NCBI GenBank assembly: GCA_947034885.2
Contig: OX344751.2
Location: forward strand, 15,376,001-15,440,000
Length of the DNA: 64,000 nucleotides
Source: Thuidium tamariscinum
Taxonomy: Eukaryota; Streptophyta; Bryopsida; Hypnales; Thuidiaceae
Direction of reading: 5' to 3'
In this document: piece after piece, positions 16,325-58,985 of the stretch
How positions within the stretch are numbered: position 1 is the first letter of the stretch
Layout of the letters: every line of letters begins with the position of its first letter
The notes under the pieces: model-generated
Database searches by the model: none
What the model was told of the DNA's origin: nothing
Seen by the model: only the letters and a program-made list of their open reading frames with translations
Position numbers and translations under genes: made by a program

Positions 16325-16830
16325 TTGAAGGACATGATTATGACCATGGACATCATCCCTTTTGGCATAGTGTGAATAGTAGGTTTAAAAAATTCTAAAA
16401 GCACTCATTATAAGTCAAACTAAGGTAGGTACACCCAAAAGCGCCAGTTTCTCTACTGTGCCTAGTTCCTGTTATTATGTTGTTCAAATTTTTTTACAGT
16501 CTTGTTGGTGAGTGAAAGCATGTTCCAATGCACCAAAGAACAGTGGATTTGGATACCGTATGCAAAAGTTATTAACAGTCAAAGTGTGTTTCTGAAAGCG
16601 CCATCTACAGTCTGGGTACATGACTGATTTTGAAAATCTATGCACGTTGTACAGAGCGCTTTAAGGTCAGGAGCCATTTTGGGTGTACCTACCTTACTAT
16701 ACAAGACATTTCCTTTCCACACAAGAGTTGGAGGGTGAATAGTTGCACTTCTGTCCAACATAGAGGGATTCACTATCATTTGTTGACCAAAAAATGTCTT
16801 CAGCATTGTTTGTGGGTTAAAGAGATTCTT
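16325..16830. repeat. Repeat family T, copy 3, split by a MITE
   Basis: Left part (to 16420) carries ATCATCCCTTTTGGCATAG and CATTATAAGTCAAAC. The right part (from 16697) carries TATACAAGACATTTCCTTTC, GGTGAATAGTTGCACTTCTG and CACTATCATTTGTTGACC. Joined across the MITE, this matches the uninterrupted copy near 62090 (CCAAACTATTGTACAAGACC), giving an empty-site comparison for the inserted MITE. Confidence 0.6.
16421..16696. mobile_element. TA-flanked MITE, copy 1 (276 bp incl. TA)
   Basis: Perfect terminal inverted repeats: AGGTAGGTACACCCAAAA at the left and its complement at the right, with TA on both outer sides. The interior holds GAAAGCGCCATCTACAG and GGATACCGTATGCAAAAG, shared with copies at 37552 and 53437. 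The copy at 37552 is in the opposite orientation. The TA duplication suggests Tc1/mariner-type mobilisation, but the ends are not the classical Stowaway consensus. No coding capacity. Confidence 0.8.
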
Positions 16831-17280: not shown

Positions 17281-19998
17281 CTACAAAATTTCTGAAAGAA
17301 TTCTCTGACATTTTTCACTTAAAATTTTGATTGCCTCTGTGAAAAGAACCTCAGGTCGTAAAGCTCCAGTGGACTCAATGGAAACTGCACGCACAGTACA
17401 CACAAATGACACGTTATGAGACTGCTCACTGTCATAATGAAGCACTGCCAAATCGCTGTCAAGTTTTCAAGTAAACGACAAGGATTTCAGATTAAATTCT
17501 TCGAAGAATATGGTTCTACCAAAAATCATAGCGCATAATTGCTCATAAGCCTAGGAACACATATTCCACACAGAAAGTGTTCACCAGAACTTCAGGCTAG
17601 TAAACAAAAAACTTGAACATGGGTTAGACAAACTGTATGGGAAGGGTACCTTAAAGTCAAAACTGACAAGTGTAAAGAGAAAAAGAAGACTAGAGTAGAA
17701 ACCGATGCACATAGTCCTCGAATTCAGCGATTGAAAACACAAGTCCAGCCATTGTTAATCCAATTTTCAATTCTCAGGAAACAACTCACATATGAAATGG
17801 TCTTTCACTCGAGTCAACTGCACCCGCCTATCCCAACCATCTCCCCTTACACATTCTCGACACAGCGTACAGTTCCTTGGCCTTACCACCCTCGCCTTCT
17901 TAACTGCAAAAACGAAGGACAAGTCCCCAAATGCCACCTTAGCACTTGAAATAAACACCAACATGAATGAGAGCAGATCAAAGCGTCACGAAGAAAAAGA
18001 TGGTAACAATCAATTGCAGTACCTGAGCCTACATCTTCAATATCAAAAACACCAACAGGACATTTTTTAACGAGTTCCTCAGCAAGATTTCCTCGTACGT
18101 CTTCCATCAGATTTACCTGTATGGTCAAAATACTAAGAAAATCAGGAAAAAAATTATAATAATAATAGGAAGACCACAGAGCAAACACTACAACATGTAG
18201 AATGACGAGGAGCAGGACGTAGAAGTGATCAATGAGAAAACTAGAGTGAGGGAGTGATTGAACGAAGGCAGTAAAAGTCCGACGGACTACCTCTGGAAGC
18301 ATCCTGTACCGGGCAGTTGCAACAGGTGACCACTTTGCATGAGTCTTACCAATACCTTTCATTGCATGCGCTTCAAGCTCTATAGCCTGTATACCAAAAC
18401 GAACCATCCAGTAAACACCAAGAGAACACTTCTACTGAATCCAGCTCGAAAGGAACGCTCTACACAATCCTGCTAAAATTGCATACAGCACCACTCACAC
18501 GAAAAGTCCTGGCTATAATTCAGTGAAGAGAATTGCTAAATGATAAATAGAAAAAAACACCACATAGAATATCACCAATCACATCTGCTCACCCTACACC
18601 GCTGGCACCACCGTAAGCTCCTACTATGATCCTAAAGAGTAGTATTACGATGTAATAAAGTATTAGTAGTATGGAAAACCGGTTCATACCTGACCTGGCC
18701 TAAGTTTCGCCACGATAATATCAGGGTACTGACAAGAGATGCCTTCCGAAGTTATTCCAGTCAAATTTGCTTGACTTGACCCAAAAGACGTAAATTTTGT
18801 CTTCGTGTTGAAAGGCATTTCACTACCTTCAGGGAGCCATTTCATCTGATCCGACTTCACTGCAAGATAATGAAACGCAGATATACTTCAAAAATCCCGA
18901 ACAACATCAAAATCCTCGTAAGCACATCTAATAACTTGTTGGAATGCATGAAAAATGCACAATTAAATAAGAATTCGGAAGCACTACGGCGATACTGCTG
19001 AGACTGTCATCTACCTTGTACTGATCGAGGTAGTAGGAAGGACTAACGTCAGAATACGAACGGTTTTAAGAAAATGCAGACTCTACAAAGGGTTGACTTA
19101 TGCATTTCAAAATTTCACAGAATCTGTTCAGAGGTCTAACCTGAGCCATTAATAATTCGCTCCTGTTTTCGAGTGCATACCACATCGAGCTTGAAAACTA
19201 TTGTGTTTTTCTCATTGGCATTTTCCTCCTCTAAAAATATTCAAGTAAAAACATATCAGTACATCATGTCATCAACTTCCAAAAAAGACCTTCAAAAGAC
19301 AACATGCTCAAATGGACATAATGAGAGTCACGACAATTACCACTCTTATAATAAAAAAGCCGTGGGTCCGCTTTGATGGGTAGCAACCCAAGCCGGTGGG
19401 CAAGGACTTCATCCTGGATAACAGATGTATTATTTGCAATATAGACCTTCTCTATCGCCATCGTAGGGACCTGCAAATTCACAAGCAGAAGTCTTACTCA
19501 ACTTATCTCTCCACATCCACCACCATTATTAGTCTGTCGATTAACCGACCCCGATGTCACAAAGTACCGAATCTAAATCAGAAATTGACTCATTTCAACC
19601 CTGACTGCAAATAGATACTGACATGTAATCCTGATTCATAAATCCTCCTCCAACACCTCAGAAATGCTTACCAAGGCAATTCAAACTCACGCTTTAACTC
19701 ATCTAGTAGAACTGCAAAACTTCAAACCAGAAAATGGTAATACCTCAGCGATAAGTATTCTTCGAAACGCATTAGCAATTGCGGCATCGATCCCAACTAA
19801 ATCAAACTCAATATCCTCTTCGTTCAGGGAAACAATATCCACACGAAGGTTCTTGGAAAAATCTTCCAGCCGTAAACTGTTGTCTATTCCATATGCCATG
19901 TATGCCCCAGAGTACTGCACCGATTCTGTCTGTTCGAGGATAAACCTTAAATAAGTATCGTCGATTGTCAAGGGGAACATAAACAGACTACTTGTCAT
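17281..19998 (-). CDS. RPAC1: DNA-directed RNA polymerases I and III subunit RPAC1 (AC40)
   Basis: Alpha-like subunit shared by nuclear Pol I and Pol III; it pairs with AC19 to seed enzyme assembly. Exons on the minus strand: 19998-19744, 19470-19341, 19230-19141, 18859-18690, 18386-18291, 18116-18023, 17903-17790, 17384-17281, with GT-AG borders and consistent phases. Visible hallmarks: [20 protein letters not shown] (about residues 76-95), [57 protein letters not shown], the cysteine cluster CTLCREC (290-296), and the C-terminal [19 protein letters not shown]. Total about 350 aa, a little shorter than usual plant RPAC1. The 5' end is uncertain: ATG at 19998 is in frame, but its first 23 residues look unlike the family. 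Acceptor-like AGs at 19930 and 19926, just before ESVQYSGAY, suggest an unseen upstream exon instead. The rest of the frame is intact. Confidence 0.9.
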
Positions 19999-20510
19999 AA
20001 CTCAGATGGAATGCGGAGAGTTTCAAAATGATGTTGCAACTGTCCACGGCAACCACAATATCTCTAGTGCAGTGGACAACTTCTTAATGGCCTTCACTCG
20101 CAAATGTTACTCGCAAATCCTGACCGTGGGTAGATAGAAGAATCTCATAATTTGCCATCAGGACAACGTGGGATGTTGTGAGAATCATACAAGTAAGTCT
20201 CCCAAAACAACCTACCCACATTCCCACAAGAGAGATTTGCCTTTGAATGGAATACATAAACCTGACTATTCATTGCCTTTGAAAGTCACAATCATTTCAA
20301 AGAATTGCATATTGTTTAAACTGTCTCTCAACAGCTGTACCGTTCGGCGTTACAGGTACACAGAATCTACCGTTTCTTCCAATTTGTAAATGCGTTTTAG
20401 ATTGCCTTACACTTGACGTTTTCTCCCGATTCTGTCCCTAAAGACTGTTCTAAAGTTGTAAACGCGCATAGAAAGATCGAAAAACGTTAAAAGCCGTCAA
20501 TTTTTGCTTA

Positions 20511-27800: not shown

Positions 27801-29005
27801 CATATGTTTCAAAACAGAAGAAAACCTCGATATATATATTGGTTCGTGTACTAGACTCACAGTCTCACACCAAACTTGAACTGATAAGTTCCATGCTTAA
27901 TTTACACGGACTGTGGGTATTGAGCAATATGGTTGAGTATCAAGTTACGGAAAGTTGTGCTGGTCTGCTGGAGACCTGGCTTAACTGATGAACTTTTTGA
28001 TATAGCTACAGGATGTTCGTAATAAGATTGGAGATAACATGGTTTAGTGCCTGGTCTTGTGGTGTTTCAGAAAAACGCTTCTTTCTTTATTAAAATTTAA
28101 GAATTTTAGCAACGGATCTGTTGATGATCAAATTTAGCTTTGAACACTTTAAAATAATTCAAGTTTTTTTTTTGTGTGAATGTACTAACAAGGCAACAAC
28201 TACATTTGAAGAGAAACTTAAGTAGGATAAAACATTAATTAACCAAAAGTATATGATTGATTCTGTTTGATTATTTTTTTAGTCCGTTCAAATCAAGTAC
28301 TCTAAACAAATAGCTTTAAAGTGTAACCAAGTGTAAGACGATGTAAGGATTTCTCTTGCCTAGTGCTCAATCAGATGGGTGCACCTGTACATGGTGGGTG
28401 TTCTGTGTTCTCTCTCTGTAGCTTCAGGGGATAATTCGAAGGAGTTAGCCTGAGCCAGCAGTTGGAATTTTCCACGGTGCAGTGCTCACGCCAACTGATG
28501 AAGACCTTGGTTTGTATGGGGAATGATAATAATAAATGACCTGTAGTTTACCTTATATCTGTTCATGTTTAGTGTCTAGGCCTAGTTGCCAGTAGGAGCT
28601 CTTATTTTGTGTTGAGTGTGGACAGTCACTCTGCTACCGTCATGCTCGGAAGTCATAACATAAATTTTCTACATTCGAAGTTGAATAATTCATCTGCCAA
28701 ATATTCTATCCGGTGACTCATCCTTAACTACGACATTCGCATTTCTGACATCCGTACACATGTAAGGTACAGTATGCTATTACCAGTTTAGGCGTCAATA
28801 GGTAGAACTTTATTACATAGTCTCGGGTCTGACAATTGCCAGTTACTTCTGATGACCCAGTAATGCCAGCCTCATAAAAGTCGGTGCACTTTGGAGATGC
28901 CTTTACCCTCATTCAACAAAATGGTATGAAGTCAACAATCTTCTTGTATAGATCCAAAAATTTACAGTATCACAAGGTCTACATCCTAAATGATGGTTAT
29001 CTGAA
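27801..29005. other. 3' flank of the Bin3 gene
   Basis: Downstream of the Bin3 stop on the minus strand. The first few hundred bases below 29005 have mixed composition compatible with a 3' UTR. No second gene recognised; frames at 28724-28912 are unrecognised. Confidence 0.4.
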
Positions 29006-32000
29006 TCACTTGGTGAACAAGTACAGAGGTCGACTAAAGCCTTTTGTGCTGTTCGGAACCTCCGGAGAGATCTCTTCGCATGACTTGAACCCAATCTGCA
29101 ATTAAACCATGGATGTATAAGTCAATGAGACTTAACAAATTTATATACATTCTTATCAGCATCAACAATGCGTAATTTGGATACCATGTGCAGAAGTTAT
29201 GAATATTCAAAGTTTTATTGGTAGATGATCTAAAACCTCACGCTGGAAAAGATATGTAGGTGGTATAACCATTTATTATCTAAAGGTTTGTGGTGGTTAT
29301 GGTTGTCCCTAACTTAAACGAAGAACTAGCAGATTCATCAACTAATTAAAAAGTGTGAGCATTCCCGTGTAGAAACTTCCACTGAAGCTGCTGCAGAGAC
29401 TACCATCTCACCTGTTCTAGGAGAATTCCCTGGAAGTGATCTGGTCGAAGAATCATGGTCCTGAAGTTCTTACGACATACCTAGATTGCAAATAAAACGC
29501 TTTCGAGTTAATACAATTCTGACCATGACTGTAATTCAAATCTCTTAAGTAAATACCAGAAAGTCCACTTTGGAAGCAAATAGTGGATTGTAGTAATTTC
29601 TGAAACACATTTCTATTGCGCAAAAATAGTCGATATGAAGCATCCTAAATGGTTTATTGCAACTCCTATAAATGAAAGTGACCACTCTTGACCATCTGGG
29701 CACCTAGAAGTTGAGAAGGTACATCCAACATGCGGTGAAGTACATTTTCGGTAAACTCTGATGTTACAACATACATACTGCCACGGACATATAAGCAGAC
29801 AAACATTTCAAGAATAGTACCTCCGATACTCTGCACTTCCGTTCATACGATGACCATGGTTGAGGCTCCAAGATGAACGCTCCCCCCTATTATTTCACAA
29901 CCATCTGACAAAGTGAGCAGTGAAATATCATTTAGAGCTGGGATTATGTCAAAGACAGTCTTGGAAAATTCTAGTGCATGCATCGAACCAGTCCCAAGAA
30001 AAACACAGCTAAGTGGAAGCTGAAATTAGAGTAATGCCATATGTTACACAATGTTTGGGCATTTCCAATCAAACTTTAGAAAAGACACTTCCATTATCGG
30101 AGGGGATTAGAAGTAGAAAAAGTTCAGCCAAAGATATAGCTGGCCCGAAGAGTTCACACAGTATGGAGGAGATGAGTAGTGGATCGCACGTGCAGAATAT
30201 TCTCTTATGAACAAGACTCGGAAACATTGATGGCTGCGACCACATTCTTTTCACACAACCTTTCTAAGATGACATTAAGAAGGGTAAGAAAGATGTAGGA
30301 TGATTTCTCACCGGGCGAAGGGCTCGATACGTCTTAATAAAAAAATCGAGAAGGCCTTCATCACCCCAGTTCAAGTGTATCCACTTCACTACACTCAAAC
30401 TGCAAACAATTCATGTCATGTACTCGATTATAGTACCCATTAAATTTCAAGACAATGCAACAAACCAGATCCAGGGATGCAGAGACAACGAAAGTTACAA
30501 GGCCTCTTATCACATTGCAATACTGAATATTTATCTTCCTTTCGCAACCTTCACCATCTGAAATATACGCTTATAAAAGTATGGAAGCCTCAAGGCTGAC
30601 AAATGCTTCAATTAGCAAGTTGACTCCCGCATGCTGTACAGGACTACTAGCTCCTACTCATCACATTCAGTGACTGCATTCATCCAAGAGGAAGTCTCTT
30701 CGAAAGCAATGGGTATAGTCAGTGTCACAAACGAGTTCGATTCCCAATAGTACTATTTGCAACAGATGAGCCCTAGATATGCTGCGGAGGAGAACTTTAC
30801 CAGAGCACAGTGTCGACAACGTTCCTGCGCAAATTGCAGTGGAGAACATTTGCATTCTTGAAAATCACTCTCTCGAGAACATCTCTCCCCTGTAGTCCAC
30901 CCTCAGTCTCATCGGTGGTTGTGGCCCCTACACTGCTATCTGTAAGGGAAGGCTTATCATCATCATCATCATAATAATCATAGTCCACTTCGTCCTCATA
31001 AACGTAGTCGCCCCATTCATATAAACTGTTCACAGTCTTGCCTCCAGTCAGCCCAGCTTCGAGCTCCAAGTTTTTCCAAGCTTTATGAATCAACCCTGTT
31101 CAAAGCAAATGTGGGAATTGCGTAAGATTTTCTCAACTCTCAGTTCCAGATTTTGACAGAACCAAGTAAAGCATTAAATAAAGTGGTCTTTTTATGATGA
31201 AAATTATCCACAGAGCAGAAATCCAAGTAAGGACCGAGGTGGTGAATCCTCTCTCATGAGAAACCTTTTGGCGTGGGCAGGCCATGACAAATCATAAGTG
31301 GGAGTGTATTCTACTCACAAGGAAATCTTGAGAATCTGGTGAACATGACGAATGTAAAGCAGCTAAACAGTGAAAGTCTACCCACGGTTACATTTAGCTA
31401 ACGAACAAAACTTTAAAAATTCACGCATAGTTCCAACAATAATAAAAAAAGCATGAACTCTACTGTTGAAATCCTCTTGAAAAGGGAACAAGACCCAAAT
31501 TAAAATGATTCAATTCTAGAAACAGAAACCACTCAAAATAACTGAAATACTACAGAAATTTTGCCAGATCTGTTTATCATCAGAACCCTAAACCCTTAGC
31601 CCTGAAACCAAGCACAAAGATACATGATCCGAAGGCAATGAGTCTCACCTGGATCGATGTCGATGCCACACATGCTTCGTACACGATATTTTTGAACTGT
31701 TGCAAATGCATCCATCAACTTCTTGTGAGTCTCTCATTGGGATATAACTCAGTCACAGCAGCTGCTGAGAGAACCAAGAAGTGTACTCGTATGTCCTCTA
31801 TCAAACCCTTAAGGACCAAGAATCCAAAGTTGAAAATGACCAATTCAATTGAAAAATAAAATCCAGACAGAGCCAAATTTTGAACAACAGAATAAGTGAA
31901 TAACATTGCATGTGTCGATGAAAAAACAAAAGGAAAGAGCATCCCCATATGACGTGCTCACAAAAACATACTGGGAACTCTTGGTTCTTTAAGGTATAAT

Positions 32001-32653
32001 CACTGAAAAGTGCTTTCAAAAACAATGATCCACAGTATCTAGAAACAGTGGAACACGCTTTCAAAAACAAGGCCATGGAATACCTAGAGAGATGGTGACG
32101 TGGCCTTCGTTGCAACCGACATCGATGACATCCTTGTTCTCAAACCAGGTCTTCTGCATTAAACTCATACGCGGATCTGATTCGAGAGTGTTACCGACCT
32201 GCACAGTAAGGAATGAGTAACTCGCTGTACAAAAGGTAGAGGATACTAAAACCGGATCCCATCTCCCATTGAGTGGCCCCCTCATACCAAACAGCAACTC
32301 ATCTTTTCCAATACAATTGGTAGGCCTTCACGCAATTAGAGTTTCCAGAGACGAACAAGATCTCTCATAGACAGCCACAACAATCATGCAAATTAGGGTT
32401 TAGGGTTTTAAAGTGCACATCTACTTATCCAGTCGTCAACAAAGACAGATGGATCACACCATACATTTCAACTTACGAATTTAACGGAGTGAGAGGCTCC
32501 TACCCGGTACCCATAGTAGCGGTTGTAATTGCCGTATTGAAAGATCACTTTCCGTTTCTTCCCATACGAAGAATTCTCCTTCTGTGGTTGGGCTTGCTTC
32601 TTAGACGGCATACTATCAACGGGGTCGTCCTCTGCCCCAAGCACTTCCTCCAT
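29006..32653 (-). CDS. Bin3/MePCE-type RNA 5'-methylphosphate capping methyltransferase
   Basis: SAM-dependent methyltransferase of the Bin3 domain family, whose animal members methylate the gamma-phosphate of 7SK or U6-type Pol III RNAs. Exons, minus strand: 32653-32504, 32198-32084, 31696-31649, 31095-30801, 30399-30312, 29886-29821, 29480-29412, 29095-29006. All are GT-AG and phases fit, giving 306 aa. Hallmarks: YGNYNRYYGYR (residues 40-50), SAM motif I VIDVGCNEGH (74-83), GIDIDP (99-104), the family signature KWIHLNWGDEG (208-218), EPQPWSSY (239-246), and the C-terminal GFSRPLYLFTK. Residues 134-151 are a Tyr/Asp/Glu-rich insert. The start chosen is the first in-frame ATG after a possible splice acceptor at 32681. 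An in-frame ATG at 32692 (14 codons longer overall) is less likely because it overlaps that acceptor. The target RNA in this plant is unknown. Confidence 0.92.
29167..29235. repeat. Partial TA-MITE relic inside a Bin3 intron
   Basis: TTTGGATACCATGTGCAGAAG followed by TTATGAATATTCAAAG and GGTAGATG matches the interior of the MITE (TTTGGATACCGTATGCAAAAG, TTATTAACAGTCAAAG) in intron 7. No terminal repeats remain. Confidence 0.45.
31584..31605. promoter_or_regulatory. Telo-box-like motif in Bin3 intron 3
   Basis: AGAACCCTAAACCCTTAGCC contains the AAACCCTAA-type core with one break. Intronic position; function unproven. Confidence 0.3.
32393..32411. promoter_or_regulatory. Telo-box in Bin3 intron 1
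   Basis: TTAGGGTTTAGGGTTTTA is a two-unit telomere-type motif inside the first coding intron. Plant intronic telo-boxes can act as regulatory sites; here this is inference. Confidence 0.45.
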
Positions 32654-32846
32654 GGCAAATAGGACAGAGGGCTTCCGACCCTGCATACACATGAACCGTA
32701 TCAGGATCTCTGAGTACGCGGCAGTGGAAGAATTTACATAAACTTAATAAGATGTACTTTGGTACATCAATAATGAATGAAAGATTGAACTTAAGAGCTA
32801 AACATAATTCAATTACTGAGGGAGGAAAGAGTGAGTGAGTGAGTAC

Positions 32847-33107
32847 CTGTGATGGCAAGCACTACCCCTCCAAGCGAGAGCCACCCCTCGTGCTTGTTGC
32901 GCTTGAAGAAAGTGTAAATGTAGTACGGGTTAAAGGCCTTGAAGATGGTGGGGTCATACTTGGCGATGTTGTAAATCCCAATTAGGGCGATGCAGATAAA
33001 CCACAGAGAAATGAAGGGCGCAAAGCTGTAGCCCACTTTTTCAGTTCCGAATCTCTGCACGCAGAACAGCACCACCAGGATTGCAACTGACACTCCCACC
33101 ACCACAT
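32847..33107 (-). pseudogene. Isolated exon of a HAK/KUP/KT potassium transporter
   Basis: A 261-bp open exon (phase 1 at both ends) encodes 87 residues from VVVGVSVAILVVLF to SLGGVVLAITG. It includes the family hallmark segments QRFGTEKVGYSFAP, YDPTIFKAFNP and EGWLSLGG, with three hydrophobic stretches. Both splice sites are intact (CAG before 33107, GTACTC after 32847). No other transporter exon was found upstream to 34.4 kb or downstream, where family members (normally about 750-850 aa) need several more. Across a 166-bp intron, the next acceptor (32681) gives G-SEAL in frame, like the family's ITGTEAM/ITGSEAL, then departs into Bin3 sequence. So this is a stranded fragment of a once larger gene, or a captured exon. 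The frame has no stop or indel, hence either young or retained. The exon could still be part of a transcript. Confidence 0.85.
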
Positions 33108-33601
33108 CTGCACATTCACAACTTGTTGAATTAATTGTATCCGAGATCATCATACACTCAGTCAAGACTTAAAAACACATCCCGGTCAATGTCTAAAGCC
33201 TCGTGCGACACTTGTTTTAACACTAACTAGCCGGATGAAGCTTTCACTGCCTCATACTCAAGGTTAGTTGCAGTGGAGCTTGCAGGCAGCTCTCGCACTG
33301 TCATCGAGTTAAATCCTAAGCGTCACCGCTTTGCTACCTTGTGTTTTCACTTTCGCGTGGATATGAAAATTTCATGATACATTTTGTCAGTTGCAAGAGC
33401 ACCCTCCCGCAGTAATTGCAGTTCTACAAACTCAGATCTTCGATCAAACCAAACATTAAAAATATGGCTAATTTGCGTAGTCTGATTTAGCACATCTCCT
33501 ACGACCTGAATCTTGAGAAGCCAGCAACAACTCTGAAGCAGGTGCTGAACTTGAAAAAAACCAAGAGTTTGAAGAGTTACGACTGTTTCCTCTTATCACT
33601 T

Positions 33602-33620
33602 AAACCCTAAAAACCCTAAT
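33602..33620. promoter_or_regulatory. Telo-box pair upstream of the transporter exon
   Basis: AAACCCTAAAAACCCTAA, two telo-box units about 0.5 kb upstream of the isolated exon and 1 kb upstream of Bin3. May belong to the promoter of the minus-strand transcription unit. Confidence 0.45.
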
Positions 33621-33639
33621 TTGCGAATTAAGACAGGGA

Positions 33640-34400
33640 CTTCAAATTCCTAGAACCCCGCGGGGATTTCAAACCCAAAGAACTGTCGACATCACCAGAA
33701 CCTCTCACTCCTGGAACCAACACTCAGAAGACGATAGCGATGGCAGCCACACACGCGACCCCCAAGACGACCCACTGGACCAGGACGAACATCCAAACGA
33801 CCAAGATGAAGACGCAGAGCAGGTTGCAACCGAAGGCTTACCACAAGGCACGTCCGGGATCTCACACGACAGTGCAAGACGAAAACCTGAAACCCGAAAA
33901 CCCACAGCACAAATTGCTGACAAATTAATCAAGCAAACTTGAAATGTGGAATTCAGTCAAAGACAAAACTTACTTAAAATCCTAGAACGAAACACAATAG
34001 CAAACCCAACCGCAAACCCAACCGCAAACCCAATCGCAAAACAAGAAAGCAAACCAGCAGAATTGCAGTACTTACATTGAAAACTAAGAATATCAGACAG
34101 AAGATTAATTTCTGTGAACTGTCCGTGCTCAAGATGCTCTCTGTGAACTCTCAGTGACGTCTCAGCGAACTCTCCGTTGCTCCTGGCGCGGTGAGCTCTC
34201 ACACCACGCTCAGATCGCAAGCGGAGAGGAGCGTGCAGCAAAACAAAAATTCAAAACTTCAGGCCGGGACCACCCAAAGCCACGCCGAGCCTCCTATTGG
34301 GGTCGGGATACAGGTTCGGGATACAGGATCGATTTCAGGATCGGTACCGAGGTTCGGTAATAGGTTCGGGAAATAGGCTCGGGAACCTGGTTGGTAGTAT
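33640..34400. promoter_or_regulatory. GC-rich island, possible 5' exon of the minus-strand unit
   Basis: CpG-bearing DNA between AT-rich flanks. On the minus strand, a strong donor context (TCAAT followed by GTAAGTACTG) ends a candidate exon at 34076. The island also holds three and a half 12-bp units of CAAACCCAACCG (about 34011-34051) and degenerate GGTTCGGGATACA-like units (34301-34390). Short open frames on both strands (for example an ATG frame on the plus strand at 33740-33928) are unrecognised and probably chance frames in GC-rich DNA. Confidence 0.4.
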
Positions 34401-35326
34401 GGTTTGGTGTCAAACCTGCAGAACAAAATTCTAGGGACCCCTAAACTTTGAAGTAATACAAGATGTGTGGGTCCTAGAGAATCATTTATAAAATCATATG
34501 TTGAAAAAGAATAAAACATATTATTAAAAAATTAATTAATTAATAGTTTTAATCTTTAAAACATTGAAAATAATTATATAGGTGTAACAATGTAGATTAT
34601 TTTTAGACTATTCCTAATGAATGCTGAATGTTTAAATCTTCTAAGGTGAGGTGGAAAAATTGAGGATCGCCTTCAAAAAATAAATTTGTGTATTTAATTA
34701 ATAGTATAGGTCAATAATTACATAGATTAATAACTAGGATTTGACCATTGTATTAGCACATGCACTTAACCCTTCAATGACCGGACTATCTCCTTGCTCA
34801 CAAATTGGTTCATTACCCAATCCCCTTTCTCATTTGGCACCATATGGCAATTCTCAATTAGACAAACCTAACATTTTCTTTTCATTACATTTCCACATCC
34901 TATTTTTGATACATTCCCACATGCCAATTTTGATACTATGAATGGACTAATTACTAATACAAGCTCACTAGAGGTGGATGGCTAGCTAGTTTGAAGTGAA
35001 TTGATCCTTTTTTTCTTAAGAACACACACACTATTCTAACTAATTGGACAAAGGAAAACTATAAGAAATAAGAAGTTAAATGTAAGCAAAAAGAGTATTT
35101 TTCCAAATACTTCTACTTTAATTTTCAAGACTTCATGACCTATGCTGATTTTTATCGAAATTTTTTGGAATAAAAACTAATAAGACTCAACTATAAATTG
35201 TACAACAAAATGTACTAAACCTTAAACATAAAAGGCACCCATATGATGAAAATAAGTTTGGTGAAGAATATGTTTGCGAAACTCAAAAAGAAAATCTCAA
35301 AAGAATAATATTTTCCCATCAAAGTT
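34401..35326. other. Intergenic, nothing recognised
   Basis: AT-rich; apart from a TTAACCCTTCAA sequence at 34766-34777 that could be an element end, nothing identified. Confidence 0.45.
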
Positions 35327-36289: not shown

Positions 36290-38110
36290 TGATCTTGTTT
36301 AACATGTCAAATAGTCACAGTCATTCCATTTGATTTAATCATGTCAGTTAGCCATGGACTTACTTCACTTTGACTAATAGACTTATGCTATCTTCTTAGC
36401 CCAATTGATTTAGCTTCAACAACCAAAAGCAAATTGTACCTACCAAATATGTTGGTAGTTTGGGAAACAATTGCAATTTACAATTCTAACTACAACTTGA
36501 CTCTATGTAACAATCAACTTGATTAAATTTTCTATATTAGTAATTTAAACACAATCCACATGTTTACAATCCACTAGACTTAAAGCAATTCATACACATA
36601 GTATTCAATCTACTAAACTTTTGCAAAACTCATTAATAAAAATTACTCCTAACATGACATCTAGTTGACAAACAACATTTATTAACAACTTTCATGAATT
36701 AGCTCATCTCAATATTACTTCACATTCAATTTGACATAAATACAATTGCAACAAACAAGTTGTATATTTAATATTCAAGCTACGATTTATCAATCTAGCA
36801 TATGGGAATTCAAATGTAATTCCCTACCAGACTTAGTCAATTAGACCTAGCGATACAAGTCTGTAATGTTCTACAAACCTATACATGGTTGTAAATCAAA
36901 TTGACTGGACTTCCACACCATGCTGGTTAGACAATTTGACATAGCATAGAAACACACAACTAGAAACTTAATTCAAATAGCTTACATCTAGACGATTAGA
37001 CTTACACAATTTTCCAAGCACAATAGTTGAAAAGCAGGCATGGTTTAGTCAATTAGACATAACCTCAACACAAAGGCAGTCAATTAGACTCAACTGAATT
37101 TATTCACACTATTAATTAACACGTGAATAATTTCAAATATTTAGTAATATCTCATAATAATACACATCTATTAGACCAAGAATCTTAACAAGATAAATCA
37201 ACAACAATTCACACAACTATCAGGTTTCCATCTGCCAAGTTGACATTGATATAGCACAATTGTGCAACTTACTCATTTTATTTAAACATCCTATGTAAAT
37301 CAATTAGATTGTAATTCCACACTTACAATGTCTAAGTGATTACAAAATTAGTACAATCATCCGGCAAGAACAAATAATCATCTGGCAAGAACAAAGAGCA
37401 ACTTGCTGAGTCCAATGGTCCGGATTCCAATGCAGTTACCTCCAGCTTCAACAATTGGACAGTTATTCGTATTTTTCCCATTCTAATTTATTCCTCACTA
37501 AAGGTAACACTTTTAACTAATAGCAACTATCTACTCTTCAGTCGATTTGACTAAGGTAGGTACACCCAAAAGCGCCCTATTCCTAAAAGCGCCATCTACA
37601 GTGCACATACATTTCGGAAATCAATCATGTTCACAGACTATAGATGGCGCTTTCAGAAACAGACTTTGAGTGTTAATAACTTTTGCATACGGTATCCAAA
37701 TCCTGCGTTCTTTGGTGTGTTGGAACATGCTTTCACTTGCCCACAAGACTACATAAAAATTTGAACTAATTAATAGTAGGAACTAGCTCAATATGAATAA
37801 GTGGCGCTTTTGGGTGTACCTACCTTACAACTCTACACTCACAAACTAAATATTCTCACCCTCCATCACATTGACCACTGGACACTGGGAAGAATGATAA
37901 ATGTAATCAAAACTGCGATTTGACAATGGCAATTGGACAAAGCTTCAAACACCCAATGAAGTATAACACGCAGACCATCAATTTGACAATCAGATAAGAA
38001 AACAAAAAGAGCTCACAGCCACCTGCTGTCTCAGCTCAAGACAATTAGACTCATACAATTTACACAATGGAAAGTTATGAATATATTGACAATTAGAAAA
38101 TGAGTACACT
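36290..38110. repeat. Cluster of degenerate CAATTAGACT / CAATTTGAC motifs
   Basis: A short motif recurs at irregular spacing in both orientations: GTCAATTAGACCTAG (36837), GACAATTTGACATAG (about 36940), GACGATTAGACTTACAC (about 36993), GTCAATTAGACATAACC, GTCAATTAGACTCAACT and GACAATTAGACTCATAC (38040). Interrupted by the TA-MITE at 37552-37827. No coding. Confidence 0.5.
37552..37827. mobile_element. TA-flanked MITE, copy 2 (276 bp incl. TA)
   Basis: Same length and ends as the copy at 16421 (AGGTAGGTACACCCAAAAGC at the left, with its complement at the right, TA on both sides) but with the interior in the opposite orientation: GATGGCGCTTTCAGAAAC then CATACGGTATCCAAATCC. Non-coding. Confidence 0.82.
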
Positions 38111-53436: not shown

Positions 53437-53625
53437 TGTAGATGGCGCTTTTAGAAACGAACTTTGACCTTAAATAACTTTTGCATATTATATCCACATG
53501 TTGCTTTTTTTGGTGTGTTAAAATATGCTTTCACTTACCAACAAGATTGTATGAAAATCTAAACAGCCTAATAACAATAACTAGCATAGAATGAATAAGT
53601 GGAGCTTTTAGGTGTACCCACCTTA
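53437..53625. mobile_element. TA-MITE, copy 3, left end lost
   Basis: Matches copy 2 from GTAGATGGCGCTTTTAGAAAC to the right terminus GGTGTACCCACCTTA, with more divergence than copies 1 and 2. It lies at the edge of the GC-rich 5' region of the LRR gene. Confidence 0.65.
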
Positions 53626-53639
53626 TTCATCACCACCAC

Positions 53640-55570: not shown

Positions 55571-58500
55571 ATGGGCAAGATAACCTGTCTGACATCAATG
55601 TTTACTCGCAAGGGAAAACTGAAGGTATTTTATTTTTTATGCTACGCAGTTTTGATATAATTTTTAATCTGAGGGTTTTGCACTGACTTCTTAATCCTTC
55701 ATGAATATAAGGTTTGGGAATAGGCTCGTGAATAGTGACATCAATTGTAATGACTTGCTTTCTTGGAACAGGTCATCACTCCAGCAGAGTGTTTAGAGGG
55801 TGACAGTGTTTGGGAGTCATCGCGGAAGATATTTTTATCAAAAGACAACGACATTCTTTCTGAAAGCTCTCAGAAAGGCTCCATGGCAAAGGACGAAAAT
55901 TCCTTCGCAGTTTTGGATTTGACAACTGACAATGAGAAATCTATGATGTCAACTGGAAGCATCTCAAAGAAGCTACTTTCTGCTCCTTCGATTGCAGAAT
56001 GGGCTAAGTATGAAAATATATCCAACTGGACAGAGCAAAGTGGTGCAGAAGCTTGTGCAGAAGCTCCTAAACAATGCCACTCTGAATTGTTTGAATTTGA
56101 CTCAAGGGCTGTGAATGTACTAAAGAATGACGAGGTGAATCGGCTTGGAAAGGCTGTCAGCGCTCGGATCGAGGTTGCAGAAGTCGCCTACGAGGGTGAT
56201 GAAGATGAAGAGTTTGAAAGTAAGTGCGAAATCCTTTCTCTTGACCTATTTTGACATGGCCGTAATGGAGGTCATTTTTAGATGCCGTTGTATTGTGTAA
56301 CAAATCAGTTGTTTTCATTGGGTTTTTCCATCTTCTACTTTTGGCTATTGGGTATTATTTGTTGGATATTCAATAGTATCTAGAGCATCTGATGTTCTTA
56401 TTATTGACATCAATGTGTCCAAATGCAGAGACTGCAGACTCTTGTGTTATTCAGATTGGGCATCAGTCCGAAGGGTCGGGTAGTGGTGAGCACTCTCCAG
56501 ATGAACAACGCTCAGGATTTAGCGCGGACAATGAAACTGCAACATATTTCGAATTCCACTCCAACATGGCTCACGGGTCTGATATTGCTGCAAGTCATTC
56601 CTTTGAGGAGGATGCCATTGGAGACTACGTCAGTGACCCAGGTGTTTATCACGACGATAACTCATGTTTGGGCCCTTCCGATGAGGACGTGGAGGATGGC
56701 CAGTCCCACATGCAACCTCAGCATGTCGATCATAGCCTCAAAAAGGCTCGTAGCGAAGGTGGTCTTTATGACCTGGGCCTTGTTTCTCAACAACATCCGG
56801 GTCAAAATACTGACCAGGACCTAGTACCAGTTTCCCAAGGAAGTCCATCTTATCTGAATGTTAGCGGGCGTGATTTTTCTATTCACTTACCGAAGAGTGG
56901 AGTGGAGAGTGAAGTCGATCTTAAGAATGCTAAAGAGGTTTATTTAAATTTGACGTTTCCTGACAAAGATCCCTCAGCGCTGAAGCAGAAACCGTGGTGG
57001 AAGATGTTTCTCATCTCACACCGTAATATCTATCCCGAAGGCAGCGGTTTGATAACCAGCTCTTCTCTTAGCAGGTCTGATAAATTACTGATTTCTGGCG
57101 CTACTGGCTATTCATCTGACGTCGATTACTACAGTGGTTTCCCGAAGTTGGAAGTTGATGCGTCCTACTCTAAGAGTGATGCTCATCATCCTGAGAGTGT
57201 TCGTAGTGGATCATGTCCTAGAATTGGCGAGGTAGCTGAGGAGGATGGAAGTGAAGTCCCTCATATAGTTGCTGTCACTAATGAAGTTACACAAGCCGAG
57301 GGGTCTCATTTCGAATCTCTGAACTTAGATCCGCCATCGGCCCATGACGACAGCGAGAAGGACCCCAAAGTGTCCTCGTTAGATCGACCTGATTTGAGTA
57401 GGGTCGAAGAGTGGATTAGCAGTATTGATCCATTTTCTCTCATAGCAGATGATGAAATTGAAACTATAGCTTACTCGGATACAGAACCTTCAGCACCAGC
57501 AGCTTCATTTTTTCGAGCAAGAGCTTCCCGACCTGATCTGATTCAAGGAGATGGGAGTGCTCTCCCGGACCGTAGAAACCACCCGGGTGATCAATTTCCA
57601 GATGCGGACAGTGAGATGGCGAGCTTCATTGCCCGGTCAGTGAATCCACTGTCAACAGTGGCCCATTTCTCTGGTGTGGGCTTAAGGCTTGTTCCACCTC
57701 TTGGAGTGCACAACAACTTGAAGACCCTCAACCTCTCAGCAAATGCCATTGGTGAGTACTCATCTATACATCGTGTTATTTTTATTTATTGTTGTTGCTT
57801 TTATATTTTATAATAAAATTATACCGGAGTATTATTTTATTATTATTATTGTTGTTGTTGTTGTCGTCGTCGTCGTCGTTGTTATTATTAATTTTGATGT
57901 TATCAATATTGTTTTACCAATTGACTTTGGGCTTACTTCTGCGTATTTTTCTGGGCGATTTTATGACCGGTTTCAACTTCCAAGTGAATCTTGTACTTTG
58001 AATATACAGTGTAATGTCTGGATTCAAAATAGAGTGAGTTATCCCAAGCAGCGTATGCTAATTCTATTGTTTGCATGATGCAGTGCGCATTGTGCCTGGG
58101 TGTCTTCCAAAAAGCTTACATATACTGGATTTGTCTCGGAACAAGATTGTTGTTATCGAGGGGTTCCGTGAACTTTCCCGTTTGCGTGTGCTGAACTTGT
58201 CGCATAATCGGATTCTGAGAATTGGACATGGTGAGTGTTACAGAACATTTATTTTTTACGGGATAGAGTGCAAATTTGGTGGTTTACACAAATGTGGATA
58301 GTCTTCAGATAACTGCGTTTCTCTGCCATTCCAGAGTATGGTCATATCCTAAATGCCGATGATTTCCACAGGTTTGGCGAATTGTACTTCTTTAAGAGAA
58401 CTGCACTTGGCTGGGAACAAGTTAAGTGAGGTGGAAGGGCTGCATCGACTACTGAAACTTAGCTTCATCGATTTGAGTTTCAACAAGCTTGCATCCGGTA

Positions 58501-58985
58501 AATCTATTGGACAGCTAGCCGCCAATTACAATTCTCTCCAAGCAATCAACCTTTTGGGAAATCCATTGCACAGCAACCTGGGCGAGGAGCCACTGCGAAA
58601 GTTGATAATTGGAATCGCTCCACATGTCGTATACCTCAACAAGCAGGCGATGAAGGCTGTTTCTGCAAGAGACGCATCAGTGGACAGTGTTGCTAGAGCT
58701 GCCTTGGGCACTACCAGCCACCACACTCATCAACGAGGCAAGACATCTTCACAGAGCAAGCCCCTTCGGCGAAACGGAAAACCTGCTGCATCCACTGCTT
58801 CCAGCCCACGTCATCGAGATAAGCGTGTTGGGGAGAAGTCTGGAACTGCTCATGGTTCTCGACCCAGTGCACTGAAGAATAAAGCTCCGTCCGAGTTACC
58901 TCTTCGTCATCGACACTCCCAGAGCCGACATGTCCATGGCTCTGGGCTCATCAAAGAATACTCTCGTGGAGTTCCAGCACCATGA
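55571..58985 (+). CDS. Leucine-rich-repeat protein (plant outer arm dynein light chain 1-like)
   Basis: Exons 55571-55624, 55772-56219, 56429-57751, 58084-58230 and 58372-58985 join in phase with GT-AG borders to 861 aa. The N-terminus MGKITCLTSMFTRKGK is short and basic, followed by a long acidic, Ser-rich, low-complexity region (about residues 50-480). A conserved-looking EEWISSIDPFSLIADDE lies near residue 494. Six SDS22-like leucine-rich repeats follow from about 597 to 720 (LKTLNLSANAI, LHILDLSRNKI, LRVLNLSHNRI, LRELHLAGNKL, LSFIDLSFNKL, LQAINLLGNPL), then an LRR cap-like segment (PHVVYLNKQAM) and a basic Ser/His-rich tail. The family is plant-wide and its biochemical role is unclear. 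The dynein name reflects LRR similarity only. I see no membrane segment or kinase, so it is a soluble scaffold type rather than a receptor. The start is supported by the phase-0 first exon. Confidence 0.85.
57834..57895 (+). repeat. Trinucleotide microsatellite in LRR gene intron 3
   Basis: A run of TTA, then TTG, then TCG, then TTA units in the 332-bp intron 57752-58083. Confidence 0.85.

Follow-up and report, generated by a model that had tools for sequence, protein, structure and literature searches.

A HAK/KUP transporter gene fragment directly before a duplicated Bin3 gene in Thuidium tamariscinum, probably placed there by templated break repair

An 803-nt insert carrying a fragment of a HAK/KUP potassium-transporter gene lies directly before the start codon of a Bin3 methyltransferase gene in the 64,000-nucleotide stretch of Thuidium tamariscinum DNA analyzed here (the window; C3:15376001-15440000 of the 363-Mb, 19-contig assembly that was searched). 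Since the genome holds both the donor HAK gene and an insert-free Bin3 gene on contig C5, it was the HAK fragment that entered a Bin3 copy. The donor, the empty site, the ends and orientation of the insert, and the intact Bin3 frame were all established, and break repair is the mechanism that we infer. We consider it very probable that templated repair of a break put the fragment, copied from this donor or from a near-identical relative since lost, into a duplicated Bin3 copy. The features concerned are as follows.

29006-32653 (-), intact Bin3 methyltransferase gene, eight coding exons, 306 amino acids, PF06859 (Pfam match and open frame)
32652-32660 (-), 9-bp flanking duplication, right repeat, ATTTGCCAT, 8 of 9 identical, overlapping the Bin3 ATG (junction comparison)
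32661-32669 (-), filler of 9 nt, CTCTGTCCT (junction comparison)
32670-33467 (-), HAK fragment, 737 of 804 aligned positions identical to C3:35857116-35857896
32670-32680 (-), opening 11 nt of the exon that follows in the donor, GGTCGGAAGCC (donor alignment)
32681-32846 (-), complete imported intron, 166 nt, GTACTC...TGTATGCAG (donor alignment)
32847-33107 (-), complete imported HAK/KUP exon, 261 nt, PF02705, 256 of 261 identical to the donor
33108-33467 (-), imported 3' part of the donor's upstream intron, 360 nt, ending ...TGTGCAG (donor alignment)
33464-33472 (-), 9-bp flanking duplication, left repeat, ATTAGCCAT, matching the C5 empty site (junction comparison)
33477-33881 (-), Bin3 upstream/leader segment common to the C5 Bin3 copy, 393 of 405 identical
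33836-33841 (-), window-only GTAAGC, possible new splice donor (GGAAGC in C5, GGAGGC in C2)

The transporter fragment and its donor gene

The 261-nt exon (33107-32847, minus strand) has a HAK frame open throughout and belongs to the Pfam K_trans family (PF02705; profile positions 133-216 of 454; E 3.7e-29). With the residues GSEAL joined on, it also matched solved HAK5 structures (E 6.7e-32). The original prediction of an intact exon with good splice sites was borne out, as the AG and GT boundaries are identical in the donor HAK gene. It had also proposed aligning the exon to the organism's own HAK/KUP genes. The exon matched 14 places in the genome: the window itself, one at 97% identity (C3:35857282-35857539), and 12 others at 45 to 54%. 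The 97% relative is the donor, on the same contig as the window and 20 Mb away. In all, window positions 33467-32670 aligned with C3:35857116-35857896 (positions 8896-8116 of the genomic stretch L011), and the copied segment comprises 360 nt of intron, the exon, the next intron (166 nt) with both of its splice sites, and the 11 nt that open the exon after it. At the donor, HAK exons stand in order on both sides, the N-terminal ones in stretch L012 and the exon with the later ones in L011; these were read separately rather than joined into one protein, and neither the two protein ends nor a short segment, some 14 residues long, preceding the exon was located.

The exon had been predicted to stand alone, and the search named for overturning that prediction, for other transporter exons nearby, found none in the window. 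Tblastn of the 64 kb with HAK5 residues 69-156 and 200-648 of 798 plus bacterial Kup gave no other HAK exon that stood out; HAK5 residues 1-68, 157-199, and 649-798 were covered by bacterial Kup only. The 40 best matches between the window DNA and 29 kb around the donor gene, hits outside the donor exons excepted, contained no further HAK exon either. A full PF02705 exon set was not found in the window, and the HAK sequence there is a fragment and not a gene. An extension of the HAK5 alignment to 33168 had suggested a degenerate preceding exon upstream of 33108. This candidate was rejected because the matching stretch precedes the acceptor in the donor too and in-frame stops lie just upstream. 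Searches with the exon found no relative among viral contigs, and among plasmids they found bacterial Kup proteins that were useful only as queries, all 485 records being below 60% identity. A literature search confined to the 261-bp HAK/KUP exon found no paper.

The transporter frame had further been said to continue from 32680 as ITG-SEAL. The acceptor before 32680 is present, and Gly-Ser-Glu-Ala follows in phase with the HAK exon. Across both strands of the window there is a single instance of Gly-[Ser/Thr]-Glu-Ala-[Leu/Met] placed in phase behind an AG, against an expected 6e-5 per 194 bp in simulated sequence, for a pattern chosen after the case had been seen. The leucine, however, does not belong to the transporter: since the donor reads GSEAM, the window's SEAL is SEA followed by the filler codon CTC. 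Past the shared 11 nt (32680-32670), the only transporter sequence here, the donor continues with ATGTTTGC (SEAMFAD) and the window with CTCTGTCCT. The Bin3 start was confirmed at 32653, in a different frame from the transporter, as had been stated.

The Bin3 copies, the empty site, and the junctions

The window protein carries the Bin3 C-terminal domain (PF06859, residues 199-306, E 5.4e-40), which places it among Bin3/MePCE-like proteins. A 2001-bp DNA query around the insertion site matched contig C5 in two pieces: C5:26846488-26846912 aligned with window 33881-33464 (95%) and C5:26846904-26846967 with window 32660-32600 (92%). The C5 Bin3 leader lacks the insert and runs straight into the ATG, and it therefore represents the empty site. 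C5 is colinear with window positions 33881-33477 and 32660-28340, a shared duplication of about 4.7 kb apart from the insert, with identities of 97.0% (33477-33881), 97.8% (31577-32660), and 93.3% (28340-31576). The Bin3 frame is intact in C5 (307 amino acids). The two coding sequences differ at 19 of 921 aligned sites plus one extra codon; 11 codons differ with a residue change and 8 without (dN 0.015, dS 0.042). A third, distant Bin3-like locus lies on C7 (46 to 50%).

Within the Bin3 upstream region lies a fragment of another sequence (window 33747-33881; C5:26846258-26846621; C2:9626701-9627109). Its C2 version is open for 112 codons on the opposite strand, with no Pfam match, and its C5 version is frame-shifted. 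The C5-C2 alignment spans 409 columns at 72% identity, and the window-C2 alignment covers just 134 bp and stops at 33880, where window-C5 similarity stops too. Because the C2-related segment is longer in C5 than in the window, a duplication breakpoint is on the window side. On the simplest reading, C5 would be the older place of Bin3 and the window copy the truncated one, the duplication then probably running from C5 to the window.

Several other features of the window were recorded. The Bin3 leader is preceded by a GC-rich stretch, and immediately upstream of that lies a repeat of about 140 bp (34441-34600). Copies of the repeat made up 36 of the 41 matches listed for the 2-kb DNA query, with lower-bound identities of 71 to 91%. 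A 276-bp element at 37552-37827 has perfect 25-bp terminal inverted repeats (TAAGGTAGGTACACCCAAAAGCGCC) and, through shared matches to C3 and C5 stretches, relatives at 16421-16696 and 53437-53626, which together resemble a MITE family. Reading frames at 19699-20001 (-) and 55754-58985 (+) are presumably those of an RNA polymerase I/III subunit (RPAC1-like) and a leucine-rich-repeat protein, respectively.

According to the original prediction, Bin3 had moved into a resident transporter gene and taken the place of its 3' part, so that only the promoter and one exon of the transporter were left. The exon, the next intron, and the start of the next exon do follow one another in order on the Bin3 strand, upstream of that gene, as such a replacement would leave them. 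However, the insert-free Bin3 gene with the same leader, which speaks directly against a replacement, was found on C5, and the donor gene, with HAK exons in order, is elsewhere on C3. The tblastn search of the window detected no N-terminal HAK exon, the sequence upstream of the fragment adjoins Bin3 on C5 too, and at either end the HAK homology stops inside the 803-nt insert. The replacement is therefore highly improbable, and it was the fallback offered with it, capture of the exon, that agreed with the donor gene and the empty site. The proposal of transcription from the former transporter promoter also fails, because upstream of the exon just 360 nt of internal intron were imported.

The junctions were compared base by base. 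The empty site on C5 reads AAATCAGACTACTAAATGTGCTAAATTAGCCATGGAGG; the window reads AAATCAGACTACGCAAATTAGCCAT, transporter sequence, and then GGGTCGGAAGCC CTCTGTCCT ATTTGCCATGGAGG. After ACTAC, C5 has TAAATGTGCT and the window has GC. The 9-bp target sequence (ATTAGCCAT/ATTTGCCAT) takes in the first two bases of the Bin3 ATG. Donor and target share 4 nt at the left join (CCAT) and 7 nt at the right (AGCCATG), the latter interrupted by the filler in the present sequence; among 400,000 random position pairs, microhomologies of at least 4 and at least 7 nt had frequencies of 0.018 and 0.0006. The filler sequence did not recur in the window, L011, L012, or L022. The left CCAT could be assigned to either side, which would shorten the duplication, and the right junction requires the filler plus one mismatch in the 9-bp repeat. 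Features of a templated insertion at a double-strand break are present here: an ectopic template (C3:35857116-35857896), an empty site (from C5:26846488), and microhomology with filler at the joins.

The 9-bp flanking duplication also bears on whether a transposon, a Pack-MULE or similar, carried the fragment in. Such a duplication suits MULEs, a Pack-MULE is defined by terminal inverted repeats together with a 9-bp duplication, and capture of gene fragments by plant transposons is known. The two repeats here are identical at 8 of 9 positions. Against this, when the two terminal 25-nt segments of the insert are compared as inverted repeats, only 6 of 25 positions agree, so that no terminal inverted repeat is present at the insert ends and a Pack-MULE was rejected. 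The HAK homology, moreover, overlaps the left 9-mer and stops no more than 9 nt short of the right one. The fragment occurred in 2 of the 41 matches listed for the 2-kb DNA query (best 40 of 61 candidates scored), namely the window and the donor. We regard transposon carriage as quite unlikely.

Under templated break repair, duplication of the Bin3 gene, with C5 as the probable source and C3 as the target, would have come first. A staggered double-strand break may then have arisen at the start codon of the C3 copy. Its repair would have copied about 800 nt from the unlinked HAK gene or its near-identical lost relative, entering and leaving the template through short microhomologies to the broken ends. 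The repair would also have added the 9-nt filler and left the 9-bp duplication and an intact Bin3 frame.

One set of numbers fits this order of events poorly. Insert and donor differ at 22 of 352 and 18 of 152 intron sites and at 5 of 261 exon sites, 3 of these 5 changing a residue (exon versus introns, P 0.0005). The intron total, 40/504 (7.9%), exceeds that between the Bin3 copies, 88/2667 (3.3%; Fisher P 1e-5), which is unexpected because the insertion should postdate the Bin3 duplication. This order might reflect a sister of the donor that has since been lost, subsequent gene conversion between the two Bin3 copies, or error-prone copying; a lost functional sister would account for the diverged introns and the conserved exon alike. 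Divergence between the Bin3 copies is itself uneven: 10/692 in introns 1-2 (1.4%; 31697-32503) versus 78/1975 in introns 3-7 (3.9%; 29096-31648; P 0.001), a hint of possible gene conversion between them. Both the divergence order and this unevenness favor an older insert, with the C5 copy having either lost it or been restored through gene conversion with an insert-free relative as the source. For a loss to leave the leader clean, however, a second exact event is needed, and C5 retains the longer upstream context, so we consider this history quite unlikely. To an assembly artefact fusing two genes we give almost no weight: a misjoin would not produce a fragment that is 8% off its only near-identical relative in introns and has its own filler and flanking repeat.

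Predicted effects on the Bin3 leader

Assuming a transcript start at 33881, there are 19 ATGs upstream of the Bin3 start in the window versus 5 in C5. Removal of the imported intron alone would leave 14, and models spliced from 33841 would leave 2 or 0. Splice sites between 33881 and the start were scored with a matrix built solely on the seven introns of Bin3. Of 103 GT sites, the imported donor at 32846 scored best, and the imported acceptors at 32680 and 33107 ranked 2nd and 3rd of 76 AG sites. A second matrix is circular for the imported sites because the HAK gene's own sites were included.

A G-to-T change found only in the window created GTG/GTAAGC at 33841, where neither C5 nor C2 has a GT. 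This candidate donor ranked 3rd of the 103 GT sites by the Bin3-intron matrix; in a wider stretch (from 34420) it is unremarkable because several other donors score equally or better.

The imported intron (32846-32681) would presumably be spliced in a Bin3 leader transcript. With a complete intron and an extra acceptor in the insert and a window-only donor upstream, a new spliced leader is plausible. A tentative further proposal, drawn from predicted sites, is that break repair may have imported functional splice sites in one step and so given the leader a new intron, or perhaps two together with a noncoding 5' exon; splicing from 33841 would shed the insert with most or all of the upstream ATGs, and translation of the second Bin3 copy could continue, now with a different 5' control.

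Comparison with known repair and capture events

In the account of PMC10923293 drawn on here, templated insertions and filler at plant double-strand breaks, attributed to polymerase-theta end joining, are copied from break-flanking sequence or T-DNA. The HAK insert resembles these in its microhomology at the joins, its filler, and its copying from another template. It differs from the insertions in that account in that about 800 nt, with a whole exon and intron, came from a gene at a distance of 20 Mb. The case suggests how a repair event, with no transposon in evidence, may set a whole exon and its splice sites before another gene.

The HAK insert is also like Pack-MULE, CACTA, and Helitron captures in that a gene fragment with intron and exon stands at a new locus, and unlike them in showing no transposon ends, as judged from terminal inverted repeats, and no further copies among the matches listed. 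Published accounts deal with introns gained together with short direct repeats, with filler and templated insertions in Arabidopsis, and with patch repair in rice. As in the Daphnia introns they describe, short direct repeats flank the inserted DNA, in keeping with a staggered break and gap filling. Unlike those introns, the HAK insert is a preexisting intron-exon-intron cassette of a host gene, and its splicing at the new site is a prediction. If the imported intron is spliced, this would be a direct case of intron gain from a known source. The step by which this captured cassette originated can be tested because the donor, the empty site, and the junctions survive in one genome.
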